From positions 1-33,710 of IMG/VR virus record IMGVR_UViG_3300025162_000122: DNA of 33,710 nt. One strand, given 5' to 3'. The stretch is from a virus. Below, piece after piece: positions 4,770 through 28,594 of the stretch; position 1 is the first letter of the stretch; every line of letters begins with the position of its first letter. Position numbers and translations under genes: made by a program. The notes beneath the pieces are model-generated. The model had not been told where the DNA came from. It saw only the letters and a program-made list of their open reading frames with translations, and ran no database searches.

Positions 4770-6041
4770 TTATTTCCCCTTGATCTCATCAAGATAATCC
4801 GCCCAAACCTGCATTATTTTTACCCTCTCTGTCAAGTGCTTTGATCTGTTGTAAGCAGATCCGAGCCGATCAGGCACGCGGTGCCCTAATTGCGCCTCAA
4901 TCGCGTCAGGCGAGAAGTTGAGCGTTTCGTGAAGCATCGTACGAGCAGTGGCGCGAAATCCATGGCCACAAACGGTTTCTCCGTCCCATCCCATTGTACG
5001 CAATGCCTGGTTGACCGTATTACCGGACATAACACGCGATGCAGCGCGTCCAGGGAAAACATATTGACTGCGACCGGTAAACGGATGGAGCTCTTTGAGT
5101 ATAGCAACGGCTTGCTTTGAGAGCGGCACAGCATGCACTTGCCCTTTTCTTTTCGCCTTCTCTTTCACAGTGAGCTTTGTATCCTCTGCTGGAAGATTCC
5201 AGATCCCCGCGCCGAGATCCACGTCGGCCCACTTCGCGTTTCTCAGCTCCCCTGGGCGTACAAAAAGCACCGGGGCGAGCCGTAGGGCGCACTTGACCAC
5301 GAAAGAACCGGCATAGGTGTCGATATCGGCAAGCAGGCGCCCAAACTCTTTCGGATCCAGAATCGCCGGCATATTCCTCTTGATTGGCATTTTAAGCGCC
5401 TTCCCGAGGCCGGCGGCGGGGTTATTCGTCACACCGGAGGTGTCACTTATCAGCGCGAAAGCGTAAATCTGACCGATGATTGTTTTTATCCGGTGCGCTG
5501 TTTCAAATGCCTGGCGCGACTCGACAATGCGCAAAGCGTCGAGCACGTCCCGTGTTGTTATGGCGGATATGAGCTTACTTCCAAGTGTCGGCAGGATATC
5601 CCTCTTCAGTCGCGATAATACCGTCCTTGCATGCCCTTCTGTCCATTCCGTCGACGCAACCCTGTACCACTGCATAGCGATCTTTTCAAGCGTATTTTCA
5701 GTGATCTCTTGCTCGATCCTTTCAGTGGACGCGATTCTCTTTTTATCTTCTTGCGGGTCCACCCCGTCGGCAAGCAATCCTCTTGCAGCGTCTCTCTTTT
5801 CTCTTGCTCTCGCAAGGCTCACTATCGGATAAGCACCAAAAGAAATCTTTTTTGATTTTCCGTTAAAGGTATACTTGAGTCTCCATAGCTTTGACTCCGG
5901 AAGCGGCAAGCCTTCATCGGTAAATATTCTTGGAGGGATATACAAGAAAAGGCCTCCGCCATCAAACAAAGTTCCGGCCTTATCTCCAGCCTTAAAAGCC
6001 TTTATTTTTGCGTCGGTTAAAGGGACGATCTTCTTAGGCAT
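4770..6041 (-). CDS. int: P4-type tyrosine integrase
   Basis: 423 aa from the ATG at 6041 (MPKKIVPLTDAKIKAFKAGD), the usual start of DUF4102/P4-type integrases; a longer frame begins at a TTG at 6101. Residues about 1-90 form the DUF4102 arm-binding domain (LFDGGGLFLYIPP, KSKKISFGAYP), about 100-210 the SAM-like core-binding domain, and about 225-410 the catalytic domain. The catalytic residues are visible: R262 in FVRPGELR, H360 and R363 in HGFRATART, H387 in LGHRVPD and nucleophile Y397 in YNRS. It catalyses site-specific recombination between attP and attB. The putative att core lies about 200 bp upstream of the start, as is normal for this group, and many family members use tRNA or tmRNA 3' ends. 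Confidence 0.96.
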   Translation of the reverse strand: MPKKIVPLTDAKIKAFKAGDKAGTLFDGGGLFLYIPPRIFTDEGLPLPESKLWRLKYTFNGKSKKISFGAYPIVSLARAREKRDAARGLLADGVDPQEDKKRIASTERIEQEITENTLEKIAMQWYRVASTEWTEGHARTVLSRLKRDILPTLGSKLISAITTRDVLDALRIVESRQAFETAHRIKTIIGQIYAFALISDTSGVTNNPAAGLGKALKMPIKRNMPAILDPKEFGRLLADIDTYAGSFVVKCALRLAPVLFVRPGELRNAKWADVDLGAGIWNLPAEDTKLTVKEKAKRKGQVHAVPLSKQAVAILKELHPFTGRSQYVFPGRAASRVMSGNTVNQALRTMGWDGETVCGHGFRATARTMLHETLNFSPDAIEAQLGHRVPDRLGSAYNRSKHLTERVKIMQVWADYLDEIKGK

Positions 6042-6072
6042 GAGTACACTTCTTGGAGGTTTTGGGTACCTT

Positions 6073-6101
6073 TTTAAAATCAGAAAGCGGTATGCAGTCA
6101 A
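6073..6101 (-). promoter_or_regulatory. Putative int promoter
   Basis: On the minus strand a TTGACT box (6101-6096) is followed after 17 bp by TTTAAA (6078-6073), about 32 bp upstream of the int ATG. GGTACCT direct repeats flank it at 6065-6071 and 6116-6122, which suggests that integrase or an accessory factor could bind across it. Box spacing is ideal, the -10 match is moderate. Confidence 0.5.
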
Positions 6102-8721: not shown

Positions 8722-10560
8722 TTATAGCGCTGTAACGCTTTGATTGATAAACTCTTTTATAGCAGTTAAACCAAAGTCTATGTGATCCTGTGGTGTATCG
8801 TTTATAATTGACACATAGTCTTTTTTGTAGCATGCAATGTCTAAAAGCTCAGTCACGATGTCGCCATATCTGATAAACTCTATTGTTGGGAATACCGATA
8901 TAATGACATCAACTCCAAGTGCAGGAAATGTCCCTGATGCCTTATCTATACTTGTGGATATATCGGAGGCAGATAACGCGCTTGTAGATAATACGGAGTT
9001 GACGGCTGTTACAGAATCATAAGCTGATATCGCTATTGCCGTTGTTATATTTTCAGAAGATGCCGCATTTTCCGATATAGAAACCGTCGTCGATATAAAC
9101 GAATTGTCTGTTGACGACGACGCATCCGATGTGGACAGTATCGATTGATTCGATGATGACGCGAAATCATAAGATGAGGATATATCTATTGGAGATATTG
9201 CCGCTTGCAATCCAGAAGCATCGCCAGTAGTAATACTTTCTTGCTTTAAAATTATAGCATATACCTGCGCCAACTCACTTGCCGAAATCGATTCTGCAAG
9301 TCCTGCTGTAACGAAAACTCCGGCAGAATCGGAAGAGGTTGATGTGTCTAAAGCGGAAGCCGATACAATTGTGCCGACAACATCAAACTCTGAAGAAGAG
9401 TCTGATGGGGATATTGTTGATGAATTAGATGTTGATACTGCATCAAGCGCAGATTCAGAATCAGTCGCTTTAACAGATATTGCAATATTCGTTGCATCTG
9501 CCGTTAATGATGATTCAGCGGATATTGCTGAAACTGCCAACCCTGCAGATTCTGTTCCGGAGGCAGTATCTTGTTTTGGTATTATGACCGCCACTTGAGA
9601 CGCTGCATCTGAAACAGATCCAGCGTCTATTACTACTGTTGAAATGATGACCCCAATAGAATCAACGGCAGAAGACGTATCCGATGGCGTACTTGCAGAA
9701 AAAACAATAGCAAGATCAGCGACTGAAGAAGAATCAGACGGGAAAATGGGGTATGATGCGATATCTGAAGCTGTGGAAGAATCCGCAGCATTCAGTGATA
9801 CGATAACATTTGAATTATCAGCAGCAATTGAAGACTCTATTCTCGGTATTGCTGCTTGCAGGCCTGCAGTATCAAAAGAGCTTGATGAATCAGACGTTAC
9901 AGGAACTGCGATAATACCAGAAACGTCCGCTCCGCTTGTAAACTCTAAAGGGCTTATTTCGGCTATAACGCCAGATGCATCCGAAGAAGATGATGTATCT
10001 GCCGGGTTCTCTGTATCAGTTCCGGACCCTGTCGACGTTATCTGTATTGTAAAGGTCGATGCAGTAGCTGACATGCTACCAAAGCTACCGGGTGTCTCTG
10101 ATGATGACGGAGATGTTTTGTAAAAAACGCCAGAAGATCGGCCTGAAGCATTACTACGGGTATTTGATGAAGTATATCCTGCCGGTGTTGATGGGGATGT
10201 TACCGTGTTATTCCCTATCGCGGCAATACAAACATCCGTTGAGCTTAATCCCGTTAATATCGGTCCTGTTTGTGTCCCCGTTGCATACGTGCCCATTGCC
10301 GCACCGCTGAAAGCGGACATTGATGCCGTTGCGGCAGAACTGATCGTAATGTTGAAGTTTGACGTAGAGGATACTGTTTGGTAAAAAACAGCCCCATTAG
10401 TCCCTGTTGCGAGGAGTGTCCATCCCGATGGTGTCGTTATCGAGTTGTTGGAGACAACCATAATCGCCAGATGCCCTGATGAAGCCCCAGCAGGGTACGA
10501 CATGATAATCGTGCCTACATTTGTTGATCCGCTCGAACCCGCTATATAGGAGATGGACAC
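8722..10560 (-). CDS. Large repeat adhesin/fibre-like protein
   Basis: 612 aa. Residues about 1-175 look like a beta-rich domain (AGASSGHLAIMVVSNNS, then GWTLLATGTNGAVFYQTVSS) similar to the N-terminal domains of many phage fibre and putative receptor-binding proteins. Residues about 181-545 are some 19 degenerate 18-residue repeats of the type 'vi.......DSSS..D.AG', rich in Ser, Asp and Ala and almost free of Lys/Arg. The last 65 residues form a different, charged end (FIRYGDIVTELLDIACYKKD). It is probably a virion-surface protein. The repeats make the opposite strand appear open in places; those frames have no independent support. Repeat regions of this kind often vary in copy number. Confidence 0.75.
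   Translation of the reverse strand: MSISYIAGSSGSTNVGTIIMSYPAGASSGHLAIMVVSNNSITTPSGWTLLATGTNGAVFYQTVSSTSNFNITISSAATASMSAFSGAAMGTYATGTQTGPILTGLSSTDVCIAAIGNNTVTSPSTPAGYTSSNTRSNASGRSSGVFYKTSPSSSETPGSFGSMSATASTFTIQITSTGSGTDTENPADTSSSSDASGVIAEISPLEFTSGADVSGIIAVPVTSDSSSSFDTAGLQAAIPRIESSIAADNSNVIVSLNAADSSTASDIASYPIFPSDSSSVADLAIVFSASTPSDTSSAVDSIGVIISTVVIDAGSVSDAASQVAVIIPKQDTASGTESAGLAVSAISAESSLTADATNIAISVKATDSESALDAVSTSNSSTISPSDSSSEFDVVGTIVSASALDTSTSSDSAGVFVTAGLAESISASELAQVYAIILKQESITTGDASGLQAAISPIDISSSYDFASSSNQSILSTSDASSSTDNSFISTTVSISENAASSENITTAIAISAYDSVTAVNSVLSTSALSASDISTSIDKASGTFPALGVDVIISVFPTIEFIRYGDIVTELLDIACYKKDYVSIINDTPQDHIDFGLTAIKEFINQSVTAL
8925..10020 (-). repeat. 54-bp coding repeats (about 19 copies, 18 aa each)
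   Basis: The central part of the 612-aa protein can be aligned in register every 18 residues, e.g. IIAVPVTSDSSSSFDTAG, VIVSLNAADSSTASDIAS, TIVSASALDTSTSSDSAG, VYAIILKQESITTGDASG. Nucleotide identity between units is low, so the array is old. A hydrophobic start, a DSSS-type turn and an acidic/AG end recur. Confidence 0.7.
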
Positions 10561-11681: not shown

Positions 11682-14600
11682 TCACTTTTTTAACTCGATT
11701 AATGAAATGGTTCGGTGGTCGCAGTACGAAGAGTTTGGAAGTAAGCCGATAGTATATGTATATGTTGCTGGATAATCTGTCACGTCGGTATCTACGAATG
11801 ATATTGAAACAATACCCCTGTACCCACCTGAAAAAGAACAATCATATTTTGCGGTACCGTTCCTATAAACCGTGACGTAGCTACCGTAATCTGCGTCTCC
11901 GTTTAATTGCATGCATGCTGTAAATAAAACAGCAGCTCCCGATGTAGTTATTGCTAATGACTGTACATTTGTTGACCCGGTTACTGATCCTACTGTATAG
12001 ATGCCGACCATGTTCGACACTGCGTTATTGAAAATATTCGCTGTGTTGATCCACGTGCCATTCAGTCTTCCTGTAGAGCCGTCGAATGTCATGTTCGTTG
12101 ACGCATTCCCAAACGCAAACTGACCGCTCGAATACAACACGCCGCCTGCGCCGGTCATGGTCGTCCCGCTTATCGCTGCCGTGTTGCTGGTCAATGTTCC
12201 GGATATGGTCAGCGATCCGGTGTTTGTCGTAATCGCTGAAAGGCTGCCAACCTTAAGGGCCGAGATATATGGTGTTGACCAGACCGTGTTTCCTGTCGAT
12301 GGGCTATAAATGCCGTCCGATTGATAAAGCGAATCTGTACTCGACGGGTTTGGATCTGTTGCGTACCATGTGGTGGTTAATCCCCAGTTCGTCCCTGTCG
12401 GGAATGAGGAGTTGCCTGACGTCGTGACCGTCCCTGTCGTTGGCGTCGGGTTCCCTGTGATGCGAGCGTACATTATCCTTGATGAGGCTCCAGTCCCCCC
12501 CGCATAGCCGATCGCGGATATTGTCGACGATGTCCAGTTGAATGCCGTTGTCGTAGCTGCCGTTGCATCGATCAGGGTTAATTTCGCAGCCCACAGCGTG
12601 TATCCAGAGCTTGGGCTTGTGCCTGGAGTTAAAGCCCACCCTGAAGGAGCGGATCCAAAGCCACCAGTTGACCAAGTATAGGTTGCCGCTCCCGACGGGC
12701 CGGATGGGATTGTTGCCGCCCACTGATACACGGTTGGTGTCGCTGTCTGTGCGCCTGCAGTGCCGTTTGCACCGGCGACAAGCATTGTGAATCCTGACGC
12801 CCAGCTTACGGTTGTTGTTGCCGCTGTCGCGTTGTCGCTGACCGCTTTACTCGCTATCCATAGCTGCAGGCCTGGCGTCCCCGGATTCGCTGGCGCTGAA
12901 ACCTGCCACCCATTTCCTCCAGTATAAGATGAACTGGCATAAGTTGACCAGGTGAAAACGGAGGTACCGGAAGGGTTCCCTGGCGTTCCTGCGTACCATT
13001 GGTAAAGTGAGGCTGTGGCGCTCTTGGACGCGGTGATCGGTACGATGCTATATTCCGAGCTGTAGCTCATGTTCGCTTTGCTGGTCTTTGTGTATCCAGC
13101 TATTCGGACATAATAGGTTGTCCCTCCAACAAGGGCCGCACCTGCTGCGTCGGTGGTTATCGTGATCAGGCTGTCTGGGCCAGAATAGACCAGATTTCCG
13201 CTCCCTGGCGTGAATCCGCTTGTTGCGCTCATGTAGACGTTGACACCACCAAAGTCCGATTGCGTTGGAACAGCGTACTTGATCGTGAACCCGCCATAAA
13301 CCGCTGTTAGGACGATACCCGTCAACGTCGGCACCTGGCTTATGGCGATGGTGTAAGTATTAGCAGTGCAGGCCGAAAGCTGCTGCAATTGCGATCCAAA
13401 TTGGTTATAAGCCGGCAGTTTGACGTATATCGTCTGGCCGATCTTGTCGGGTGTGAACGGCATTTTGAACATGGCCTGGTCAACACGGACGAAGTTTGCG
13501 CCTGCAGCGTGGCTTGCGATTGCGGATCCATAAAGCCCTCTGTGTAGGGTTGTCAGGTTATAGCTGTATCCGCTATCAGTCGTGAGCCAAGCATCACCGA
13601 TTGCGATTTGTGCACCATTGCTGAAATCGGCCAAGAAGTAGATGTTGCCGGTGACGCTCGCCACGCTGTTAAACGACAGCGAGAATTGTTGCCAAGACGA
13701 AGTTAAACCTGAAGTCGAAAATGGTAATGTTTTCCTTTCCAATGTCCCTGCGGCACCATCGGTATCATCTTCTGCTATGATCAGATCCCCTCCTATAGGG
13801 CATGTGCCTGAGATGATCTTCGCCCATACCGTTATCGTATAATGTGTATTTGATATAAAACTTACGCCGTTCAACACTGCGACATAACTGTTATTCGGTA
13901 TGGTGGAAGAATATACCGTAGCGTTCCCACCTCCGGTATGATCTGTCGTATTACCTATTCTTGTCGTATTTGTTCCTTTTACCCAGCCCGAACTGGTGCT
14001 GCTGTCGATTGCCGTCCCGCCTGTCAGATAGTTATAACTTGCTGTTAGCGTTGCTGTCTGGTATGCAACATATTCGCTATCAACGAGGGTTAGTGAGGCA
14101 TAGTTGTTCCATTCTGCGACTGTTGCGCTTCCCAATGATTGACCGCTCAGAACATTGACGGCAAGCGTGTTTGTCGTATCGGGATCTGAACCTGACGCCA
14201 GCGTCGCTGTAAGTTTCCCCAAGCGTGCCGGTGAATCAATAGCCCCGACGTATGCATAGCTCACGTTATCGTAACTCACCCATACCTCGCACCCTCCCCA
14301 GGTCGCTGGTACTGCGCCATAAGCTCCCACCCATATTTCAAGGCCGGTTGCCGTCAGTACGCTTGGCGGCACAAAAATGTTAGGTGCGGCGGTGCTCCCT
14401 GGAAGCACCAGGTTGTTGACTCCGCCTCCGCCTCCGGTTTGTGTGCCATAAACGGCATGTGAACTTATCCCTGCCGGTGCATCTTCAGCGGTGATCAGCA
14501 ATTCATCTCCGCTTTCATCTATCGTCAGGATCCTGACCGGCGTGGCTACCAGACCGAGGGCAGGATCATCCAGGGTGACGTAATCAGTTGGCTCAAGCAG

Positions 14601-15734
14601 GATGTACTGAATTGGCAGCGTGAAGGTGTACTTGTTCCGGATGTACAGGTTTCGCTGCAGGATGAGCTGCGCTGCAGATTGCGCGATGCTGGTGTTGCAT
14701 ATCTGGTGCGCAGTCACGTTACTCATTGCTCGGAGTCCATAAACGTCGACGTTCACCTGGTCACTGGCTCGGATGCTTGTTTTGTTGTAGCTGTTGGAGC
14801 GATCCAGGCACTCGACGTCTATCTGGTTATAAGCGTCAGCCTGCGATCCTCTCTCGATTAAAACCGGATCCGAAGTACCTGAAACAAGGAACGCATCATC
14901 TCCAAGTTCGTATATCGGCGTGATGTTTGGCGTGTAGGTGTAGCTGTTTGCGGTGATGGCTGTGTCGCCATACGGCGTGATCTTCAGCAATCCCTCGCTG
15001 AAGTATGCCTCTGCATTCGTCAATGCCAATAAATCCGTTATGGCTTTGGCTGCGCTTTGCGTGGTATCGTATGCCGGCGAGAAAAGCAGACCGTTGGCTA
15101 TGCAGTATGCCTTGTAACTTGTCCATGTTCCCAGGTTCGCGGCTGGGAATCCGGCGCCATATCTGGCGTTGGTGAGGATATCGGTGATGATAAAAACCGG
15201 ATCGACGTCGGGGATCCCTGTGACGCTGGTTCCGTATCCTTGCCCGTACACCTCAAAGGTCAGTTGTGGTAACGATGGGGAGCTGCCGAGGTTGTAATTC
15301 GCTGCTGCGATGTATGCCAGGTTTCTGTACGTCAGTGCCTTTATCGGATCCAGTGTCGTTAAATATCCCCATGCTGCCTGTGCTGCGCCTCCCGTGAACG
15401 TCGAGAAGGTGTCCGTTGTGTCCAGGACGCCGTTGTTCCAGACCGCATGGATGCTGCCTATTGGCCCTTCGCAAATCCCAAGCATGAACGAGGCCGTGTA
15501 ACCGTATCCGGTCTGTGTCGCCTGGTTCCCGCCTCCGCCCTTGCCTGAGCTTGTTTGAGTGTATTGTGGTGTCGCTGTGAACGCTCCGTACCAGATCATG
15601 TTCCCTGGCACTCTTGTGGCTCCGTAGATGATGGGAAGCGTCAGCCCGTATACTGAGGTGGACACAGATAAGCCGAGCGCTGCGGCTTGCTGTGATGCAT
15701 TGTTTGCAGCGCTGTGTACAAATAACCCGCCCAT
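11682..15734 (-). CDS. Tail-tip / central fibre protein (lambda gpJ-like)
   Basis: 1350 aa, the largest gene. The N-terminal 450 residues have the pattern of gpJ-like tail proteins: VYGLTLPIIYGATRVPGNMI, YGYTASFMLGICEGPIGSIH, DVDPVFIITDILTNARYGAG and NAEAYFSEGLLKITPYGD. A block follows with the usual 'LTTLHRGLYGSAIASHAAGA' segment; here a roughly 160-residue carbohydrate-binding-like module appears inserted before it. Fibronectin-like sequence is next, then two tandem copies of a 75-residue domain (about 12500-13020), and a C-terminal fibre region with a small beta domain. It would form the tail tip and contact the host receptor. Its ATG overlaps the NlpC/P60 stop (TAATG). Confidence 0.9.
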   Translation of the reverse strand: MGGLFVHSAANNASQQAAALGLSVSTSVYGLTLPIIYGATRVPGNMIWYGAFTATPQYTQTSSGKGGGGNQATQTGYGYTASFMLGICEGPIGSIHAVWNNGVLDTTDTFSTFTGGAAQAAWGYLTTLDPIKALTYRNLAYIAAANYNLGSSPSLPQLTFEVYGQGYGTSVTGIPDVDPVFIITDILTNARYGAGFPAANLGTWTSYKAYCIANGLLFSPAYDTTQSAAKAITDLLALTNAEAYFSEGLLKITPYGDTAITANSYTYTPNITPIYELGDDAFLVSGTSDPVLIERGSQADAYNQIDVECLDRSNSYNKTSIRASDQVNVDVYGLRAMSNVTAHQICNTSIAQSAAQLILQRNLYIRNKYTFTLPIQYILLEPTDYVTLDDPALGLVATPVRILTIDESGDELLITAEDAPAGISSHAVYGTQTGGGGGVNNLVLPGSTAAPNIFVPPSVLTATGLEIWVGAYGAVPATWGGCEVWVSYDNVSYAYVGAIDSPARLGKLTATLASGSDPDTTNTLAVNVLSGQSLGSATVAEWNNYASLTLVDSEYVAYQTATLTASYNYLTGGTAIDSSTSSGWVKGTNTTRIGNTTDHTGGGNATVYSSTIPNNSYVAVLNGVSFISNTHYTITVWAKIISGTCPIGGDLIIAEDDTDGAAGTLERKTLPFSTSGLTSSWQQFSLSFNSVASVTGNIYFLADFSNGAQIAIGDAWLTTDSGYSYNLTTLHRGLYGSAIASHAAGANFVRVDQAMFKMPFTPDKIGQTIYVKLPAYNQFGSQLQQLSACTANTYTIAISQVPTLTGIVLTAVYGGFTIKYAVPTQSDFGGVNVYMSATSGFTPGSGNLVYSGPDSLITITTDAAGAALVGGTTYYVRIAGYTKTSKANMSYSSEYSIVPITASKSATASLYQWYAGTPGNPSGTSVFTWSTYASSSYTGGNGWQVSAPANPGTPGLQLWIASKAVSDNATAATTTVSWASGFTMLVAGANGTAGAQTATPTVYQWAATIPSGPSGAATYTWSTGGFGSAPSGWALTPGTSPSSGYTLWAAKLTLIDATAATTTAFNWTSSTISAIGYAGGTGASSRIMYARITGNPTPTTGTVTTSGNSSFPTGTNWGLTTTWYATDPNPSSTDSLYQSDGIYSPSTGNTVWSTPYISALKVGSLSAITTNTGSLTISGTLTSNTAAISGTTMTGAGGVLYSSGQFAFGNASTNMTFDGSTGRLNGTWINTANIFNNAVSNMVGIYTVGSVTGSTNVQSLAITTSGAAVLFTACMQLNGDADYGSYVTVYRNGTAKYDCSFSGGYRGIVSISFVDTDVTDYPATYTYTIGLLPNSSYCDHRTISLIELKK

Positions 15735-27116: not shown

Positions 27117-27323
27117 TTACTTCTTGTCATTTAGTTTTTCGAACTGGATGCCATGATCGCCTTTGTACGGTTCTTTGTGATCGTTTTTCCCCATCCATAT
27201 TTCCATTGGTATGCCCTTTGGGAATGCTTCGCATTTGTGATCTTCTCCTACGTCGTTATGCTTGCAAAAGGTGCATATCTTGCTGTATTGAGGGATTTCA
27301 AACTCTTTGTCAATGGTTATCAT
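27117..27323 (-). CDS. Small Cys-containing protein, candidate MuF partner/immunity
   Basis: 68 aa starting MITIDKEFEIPQYSKICTFC. Three cysteines (C17, C20, C31) in 'iCtfCkHnd...dhkCeAFPkGIP', then EIWMGKNDHKEPYKGDHGIQ and F. This compact domain occurs as a stand-alone small protein in many bacteria and phages. Its start overlaps the MuF stop (ATGA), so the two are made together. Tight coupling to a gene with a C-terminal enzymatic-looking domain is the classical toxin-immunity layout, but no immunity function is known to me for this family. Confidence 0.72.
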   Translation of the reverse strand: MITIDKEFEIPQYSKICTFCKHNDVGEDHKCEAFPKGIPMEIWMGKNDHKEPYKGDHGIQFEKLNDKK

Positions 27324-28594
27324 AGCTCTATTCTGTTATAGTTTATATAGCCCATATCCGCGAAATGTGTTGCTCTGAGATGTGCGTGTATAGCATCGGC
27401 TTCCTTGTAAGTTATCTCTCCTGAATTACATTTAGCTGTTAATTCTTTCTTTATCTTCTTTTGCGAACGCGTCAAGGCACTTTCGAAATCTGCTTTTGAG
27501 GTGCTTAACCCTTGCTCGGTTAATGACATTTCATACAAAAATTCCGTACTGGTTGCTCTTAATGATGACGGTTCCCATGATCTAAGGAAATATATATCTG
27601 CTTCAGAAAAAGCCGTTCCTGATGGATGGTTGTGGGTCAAAATATTACCTGTCGCCATCTCACATTCTTCTCGCGTGAATGAAACTAATTTCCCTTCACC
27701 TCTTTTCCTGAATACTTCAGCCCCATCGTTATCTACAAATATAGCTGTTTCAAAATCGTTCCCCGCTATATCAGCTTCTAACGCAAGAATAATTTCTTCT
27801 GTTCCCGCTTTTTCTGAATCTTGACCAGTGTCATCTCCACTGTCTGCATCTAAGTTGTCTTGCGACGAAACACTCTCTTCTTGTTTGTCGTCAGCACTTA
27901 AAGTATCCTGCCTTTCTTGCGGATCATCCTCCACTGCCGGAGCTAAAACACAACGGCAATTTGGATGTTGCGGGCACTCAATCGCGCCACTTGGAAACTC
28001 TTCGCCTATCTCCCTTACTTCTCCATCGTTCATCTCACACTCTTCAGAAACCAGATCATCACCTGCGGTCATCCACTGCCACTTAACATCAAGACCTGCA
28101 TCTTTTGCCTCAAGATAAGCGGCTTTATTGCCTTGTGTATCCGCAAACGCGGTTTCTGTTCGAGCTATCATCATTGCGCGGCTGTCGGAAAATCCTGTGT
28201 TTTCGACAATCGCATCTCTCAGTCTTTGATTACTCCATCCTTCTGAAATTGCGCTGTCAACATCCTTATAGATCATGTCTCGGGTGGATTCGGCGATGCT
28301 CCACTCTGCGTTTGGATTTGTTACCAGCTCCCCATCAATCCACTTCATACCAACCAGTTCGGCGGCTCGGTCTGCGGCCCATTCCTCAGCTCGGGAGTTA
28401 GCGAGCTTTGTCGCTTCTTTTTCTGTAAATGCAATCTGCTTCATCGCGTCTTTCACGCCCTGCGCGGCTGTGGCTGAAAGAAGCTCTTCAATGTCCGGCA
28501 CGATATTAGACCAATCAAGATCAAGTTGATCAAGAAGCTCCTGCACGGTGTTATCTTCTTCAGCCTTGCTTATTGCTTCATACAGCTTAACCAC
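27320..28594 (-). CDS. MuF-type minor head protein with C-terminal JAMM-like domain
   Basis: 424 aa from the first in-frame GTG at 28594, but the frame stays open to the portal gene (see finding). Residues about 100-217 are the Mu gpF/SPP1 gp7 head-morphogenesis domain: NQRLRDAIVENTGFSDSRAM, MIARTETAFADTQG, a GDDLVSEECEMNDGEV segment and ECPQHPNCRC. An acidic, Ser-rich linker (about 222-265) follows. The C-terminus (about 268-424) holds NILTHNHPSGTAFSEAD, with H321, H323, S330 and D333 arranged like the JAMM/MPN+ metal site of RadC-type proteins, and an E293 upstream. MuF proteins with such C-terminal extensions are known polymorphic-toxin carriers. Confidence 0.88.
   Translation of the reverse strand: MVKLYEAISKAEEDNTVQELLDQLDLDWSNIVPDIEELLSATAAQGVKDAMKQIAFTEKEATKLANSRAEEWAADRAAELVGMKWIDGELVTNPNAEWSIAESTRDMIYKDVDSAISEGWSNQRLRDAIVENTGFSDSRAMMIARTETAFADTQGNKAAYLEAKDAGLDVKWQWMTAGDDLVSEECEMNDGEVREIGEEFPSGAIECPQHPNCRCVLAPAVEDDPQERQDTLSADDKQEESVSSQDNLDADSGDDTGQDSEKAGTEEIILALEADIAGNDFETAIFVDNDGAEVFRKRGEGKLVSFTREECEMATGNILTHNHPSGTAFSEADIYFLRSWEPSSLRATSTEFLYEMSLTEQGLSTSKADFESALTRSQKKIKKELTAKCNSGEITYKEADAIHAHLRATHFADMGYINYNRIEL

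Follow-up and report, generated by a model that had tools for sequence, protein, structure and literature searches.

An inserted domain in a phage tail-tip protein

The virus record IMGVR_UViG_3300025162_000122 is 33,710 bases long and carries genes for a terminase, a portal, tail proteins, and an integrase; the whole stretch, positions 1 to 33,710, is referred to here as the window. Its tail-tip protein, a gpJ/megatron-like hub of 1350 residues encoded at 11682–15734 on the minus strand, contains an inserted carbohydrate-binding-type module of about 156 residues (aa 567–722; 13569–14036, minus strand) that is absent in its homologues. The module is probably a horizontally gained addition of the glycan-binding type, and it likely serves adhesion of the tail-tip hub to a sugar on the host surface. 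Comparison with homologues and structure prediction establish the gain as in frame and recent, assign it a place in the predicted fold, and point to a family resemblance for the module.

The homologues came from viral contigs (25 loci, plus 80 retained of 524, with some contigs in both), genome contigs (54 loci), and three phage records. Three of the resulting 158 loci (L001, which is the window itself, L027, and L031) were excluded, and the alignment took in 156 homologous frames in addition to that of the window. Since none of the printed search patterns for the homologue scans covers the junction, emptiness at the insertion point played no part in selecting the sample. The stretch between the anchors L563 and L730 holds 168 residues in the window protein versus 12–14 in all 150 homologous frames that cross the point, which represent 149 loci and 132 distinct core sequences; the remaining 6 of the 156 end before it. 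One of these frames (L080, 14 residues) is a frame-shifted reading, and the proper frame of the same locus gives 12. The extra segment is thereby confirmed as an insertion. A preliminary description, made from the sequence alone, had placed an interruption of about 160 residues at 13545–14040, and this holds up well, since alignment with gpJ-like homologues yields continuous, insert-free versions in every spanning frame. The phrases it had quoted lie at aa 560–571, 631–650, 679–690, and 723–737.

The edges of the insert are uncertain by about 3 residues. In relatives the junction reads TATLTSANRYNLTTLHRG, and in the window protein it reads TATLTAS, followed by the module and then YSYNLTTLHRG. 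Similar phrases at the two edges had been taken for a duplicated junction, a claim that fails to convince (p about 0.01, post hoc). Flanking a 3-base gap, the edges have AG[T/C]TATAAC and CTGACA in common, which makes 14 of 15 bases with the gap allowed. Among 18,049 random pairs of sites within the gene, 175 score as high, as do 8 of 1,170 pairs at similar spacing. At this chance level of about 1%, a transposition-like duplication is not convincing either. The left-edge "NYLT" aligns with the "NILS" that opens a related module in Burkholderia phage vB_BglM_WTB (below), so the left copy may be the module's own first strand. The shared bases may be microhomology used in joining, or nothing.

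A module joined to the gene through misassembled metagenome reads would agree with the slightly lower GC (guanine plus cytosine) fraction of the insert (0.473, versus 0.541 and 0.521 in the flanks) and with the origin of the window as an IMG/VR virus record, its ends classed as in IMG/VR. Such a chimera is highly improbable, because both joins preserve the reading frame and lie only a few residues from a hairpin turn, and because other stretches of 155 codons in the same gene span GC fractions (0.437–0.591) that include that of the insert.

Place of the insert in the hub fold

The insert divides the Rcc01698_C domain (PF23666, E 1e-11), which is matched in two stretches. The first covers aa 503–569 (14028–14228, minus strand; profile positions 1–72 of 98), and the hub domain resumes after the insert at aa 723–797 (13344–13568, minus strand), as placed by alignments and by a structural match to the megatron of phage R4C. 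In the insert-free homologue L034, the same domain is one stretch spanning profile positions 1–98.

An AlphaFold2 model of the hub was built from 68 aligned sequences, of which only that of the window carries the insert; the C-terminal carbohydrate-binding module (CBM) rows of homologues L034 and L060 were omitted from the alignment because they aligned to the hub. The hub part is predicted with a pLDDT (predicted local distance difference test) of 92–98. The module is placed between a strand at aa 554–565 (14040–14075, minus strand; model strand 115–126) and a strand at aa 723–734 (YSYNLTTLHRGL; 13533–13568, minus strand; model strand 284–295), the latter conserved in homologues. The two strands are read as arms of one hairpin because only a short turn separates them in relatives.

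With low-confidence stretches omitted, the hub model matches residues 1132–1334 of the R4C megatron (8gtc_M; Z 19.7, 2.2 Å, 191 residues aligned), residues 404–599 of JBD30 baseplate chain b (Z 18.1), and residues 417–620 of the Chi tail tip (Z 15.3). A profile of seven homologues reaches residues 1021–1135 of the RcGTA megatron and 1157–1305 of the R4C megatron, in each case as a second and weak stretch of a match that is otherwise significant. The available parts of the published descriptions set the limits of the fibre-binding domain at 985–1304 in the RcGTA megatron (PMC7296036) and 1131–1447 in the R4C megatron (PMC10276861), so both matches fall within that domain. A search of a viral fold library returned hub-like tail proteins, and no same-site insert was recognised in the match list. 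Structural matches to Infectious bursal disease virus were disregarded, as their root-mean-square deviation exceeds 20 Å.

Timing of the gain

Hub columns flanking the insert on either side gave a tree of the 45 closest among 131 distinct sequences. Nine sequences, the window included, form a clade with support of 1.0, and all eight relatives in this clade are without the insert. L088, the most distant member (79% identity), branches off from the other eight, which form an inner clade (support 0.88), and the remaining relatives are 85–87% identical to the window in flanking hub columns. The nesting of the window among eight insert-free relatives shows a recent gain, and a single gain on the window's own branch explains the distribution of the insert. 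That the module is instead ancestral and was lost from every other known relative is scarcely credible, since many independent precise losses on the tree would be needed versus one gain, and nothing in its favour was found. The window records a clean, recent, one-step gain of a CBM-type module, with close relatives (79–87% identical in the flanking hub) all empty at that place, and it offers a natural with/without pair for asking what such modules do for a phage.

Resemblance to carbohydrate-binding modules

The one match to the module among 50,697 phage records is the DUF2612 baseplate protein WGN90798.1 of Burkholderia phage vB_BglM_WTB (31.7% over 136 residues, E 6e-12). Across alignments, identity is 31–32% over about 136–150 residues, and the pairwise alignment contains 47 invariant columns at about 32% identity. 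The WTB module passes the cut-offs of both CBM_4_9 (31.9 versus 25.9 bits) and GTA_spike_fiber (59.5 versus 36 bits). A Foldseek search with the weak single-sequence model of the window module (mean pLDDT 48.7) gave 14 PDB matches at E <= 0.001, all of them carbohydrate-binding modules, and the best fold matches of this model are CBM families 16, 4, and 22 (Z up to 8.9). Its top match in VIA-align is the CBM4 structure 1gu3 (Z 8.9, 3.3 Å, 114 residues).

The module as placed in the hub model also matches residues 163–321 of the central fibre of mycobacteriophage Douge (Z 7.7). According to the accessible portion of the Douge report, the CFP-NTD (165–321) bound mycobacterial glycans on arrays, and cells (PMC13033339). 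The RcGTA head spikes, as described in the available part of the RcGTA study, have oligosaccharide-binding sites and function in capsule attachment (PMC7296036). The predicted fold and the position of the WTB relative above the CBM_4_9 cut-off support, by resemblance, assignment of the module to the carbohydrate-binding kind, and this resemblance suggests that the module binds glycans.

Several observations weigh against this assignment. The module alone has no family match in Pfam, PHROGs, or NCBIfam, and it is left unmatched when CBM_4_9 (PF02018) and GTA_spike_fiber (NF048003) are compared with the window alone at E <= 10. Its single-sequence model is all beta and weak, with a predicted template modelling score (pTM) of 0.52 beside the low mean pLDDT, and inside the hub model its pLDDT is 31–71 by ten-residue blocks and below 50 for about aa 568–613. 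Meprin and ephrin-receptor domains score close behind CBM4 in VIA-align, and the Z scores of 7–9 are not far above the level of unrelated beta-sandwiches. Many galactose-binding-like folds bind no sugar. The jelly-roll pattern of the preliminary description therefore survives as a modelled beta-sandwich with CBM-type matches, at low to medium confidence. The search with the module alone that it had called for gives no established family and the 31% relative in phage WTB, and of the glycan-binding gain that it proposed, the gain of a beta-sandwich is well supported by homologues, tree, and hub model, with the CBM type resting on resemblance.

The same structural matches bear on a protein-binding role, in which the module would be a docking or spacer beta-sandwich that holds side fibres in place, or sets their tilt, at the fibre-binding domain. 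The module sits in the domain that anchors fibres in R4C and RcGTA, and its fold class includes the similarly scoring ephrin-receptor ligand-binding and meprin domains. However, the nearest sequence relative lies above the CBM_4_9 and GTA_spike_fiber cut-offs, the best Foldseek matches are all sugar-binding modules, and relatives with the same fibre-binding domain manage without the module, which makes this role rather unlikely, though deserving of some weight.

A neutral passenger, inserted in frame at a tolerant turn and keeping no function, is decidedly improbable. The turn does join two strands of one hairpin, and selection is not measurable because a single record carries the module. However, the turn is 12–14 residues long in 150 of 150 homologous frames, which indicates that insertions are not usually accepted there, and the insert retains an open frame and the invariant columns that it shares with a relative in another phage type.

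Further copies and other decorated hubs

A module search among plasmids gave no match, and scans of the viral and genome collections by short peptide patterns, an insensitive approach, found no copy whether the module was used by itself or together with its WTB relative. A phmmer search of the PDB gave weak, mostly fibronectin-type matches (best E 0.027) that were taken as chance. A search of 300 genomes of one bacterial order returned one match, L159 (E 3.1e-5), and a search of 399 genomes of the same order returned L159 (E 7.5e-6) and L161 (E 0.0016). L161 was rejected, as its frame reads as what is presumably an efflux adaptor. L159 (1261–2397) is a bacterial protein of the exported type that has both an IPTL-CTERM motif and an Ig domain; its N-terminal part resembles the module, so it is possibly a distant bacterial relative.

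Other CBM-bearing hubs were surveyed among 34 long homologues (>=1150 residues) of the 132 distinct sequences. Phage-tail_3 is present in all 34 and Rcc01698_C in 32, and CBM_4_9 occurs in two, in both cases far downstream or near the C-terminus (L034, aa 1513–1583; L060, aa 1042–1153). Comparison of a profile of the module pair with the L034 and L060 CBM rows gave a probability of 79.6% over only 67 columns. In single-sequence comparison with the module, WTB, L159, and L034 score well above all 800 shuffled sequences, and L060 barely exceeds the best of 800. The C-terminal part of the tail-tip protein also varies among close relatives. Past approximately aa 1090, L002, L003, and L006–L008 strongly diverge from the window; they are up to 1566 residues long, and it looks as if this part had been exchanged.

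Proposed role of the module

The favoured explanation is that a mobile CBM-type beta-sandwich of about 155 residues was acquired in frame by a siphophage-like, probably temperate phage, at a hairpin turn within the fibre-binding (Rcc01698_C) domain of its tail-tip hub. The hub would still fold because the module ends leave from neighbouring strands. Because the R4C and RcGTA megatrons are trimeric, three copies per virion would presumably project from the hub, exposed near the host surface. Their likely role is weak, multivalent adhesion to a surface polysaccharide or O-antigen, which would keep the tail tip at the cell until it engages the true receptor. An effect on host range, as the preliminary description had suggested, is possible.

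Sugar binding might also be relayed directly to the fibre-binding domain and help the hub to open, making the hub its own polysaccharide sensor. This extension, which is improbable, follows from the location of the module, whose hairpin belongs to the domain by which relatives hold fibres at the hub base. If it were true, the position of the module, and not its presence alone, would be part of the infection trigger.

Relation to known systems

The closest structural parallel is the megatron of Dinoroseobacter phage vB_DshS-R4C (8GTC), which is likewise a trimeric hub of the same family with an extra carbohydrate-binding-type domain relative to RcGTA, as stated in the available part of its report (PMC10276861). 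That report, to the same extent, places the extra domain of R4C (482–629) in the peripheral domain and likens it to CBM11, whereas the window module splits the fibre-binding domain and is CBM16/CBM4-like. Insertion of CBMs into a distal tail or hub protein is likewise seen in the evolved Dit and Tal proteins of Gram-positive siphophages, according to the accessible portion of their description (PMC7291167). The window insert differs by sitting in the Rcc01698_C domain, of which that portion says nothing; like a CBM-decorated Tal, the window hub has a domain inserted in a structural domain and absent in close relatives, its CBM nature being judged by resemblance.

The module of WGN90798.1 in vB_BglM_WTB is the same module by sequence (CBM_4_9, GTA_spike_fiber), but it follows the N-terminal DUF2612 domain of another baseplate-type protein and is not within a hub hairpin. 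The CFP-NTD of Douge gp20 (8ZDQ) has a matching fold in a tail-tip protein with array-shown glycan binding. However, as far as the accessible portion of its report describes (PMC13033339), it is a central-fibre domain between N-arm and stem in a mycobacterial phage, and its likeness to the module is by fold alone.

CBM-decorated Dit and Tal proteins and R4C make this kind of decoration known, and its position here is undescribed as far as searched: the open-access literature yielded no paper on a megatron-like hub whose fibre-binding domain is interrupted by a CBM. This would be a third position of decoration in megatron-like hubs, after the peripheral domain (R4C) and the C-terminal part (two of 34 long homologues).

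The tail-tip gene and the remainder of the window

The tail-tip protein passes the Pfam cut-offs of Phage-tail_3 (106.7 versus 23 bits) and Rcc01698_C (45.4 versus 27 bits) and matches PHROG 1101 (tail protein; E 1.4e-98). Its Phage-tail_3 domain (PF13550, E 1.5e-30) spans aa 224–405 (14520–15065, minus strand). Its score against NCBIfam GTA_megatron, 140.5 bits, is below the equivalog cut-off of 800, consistent with a relative of the RcGTA megatron and not an RcGTA megatron itself.

A tyrosine integrase is encoded at 4770–6101 on the minus strand, which makes a temperate lifestyle probable; a search for tRNA genes in the window found none. Downstream of the tail-tip gene, at 8722–10560 on the minus strand, lies a gene for a repetitive protein of 612 residues rich in Ser, Asp, and Ala. 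This protein has no Pfam or PHROG match and is possibly a fibre. A Mu-F-like head protein encoded at 27320–28594 on the minus strand matches only Phage_Mu_F in Pfam, and it has about 200 extra C-terminal residues containing a THNHPSG motif, which we take to resemble a metalloprotease or nuclease-type motif.
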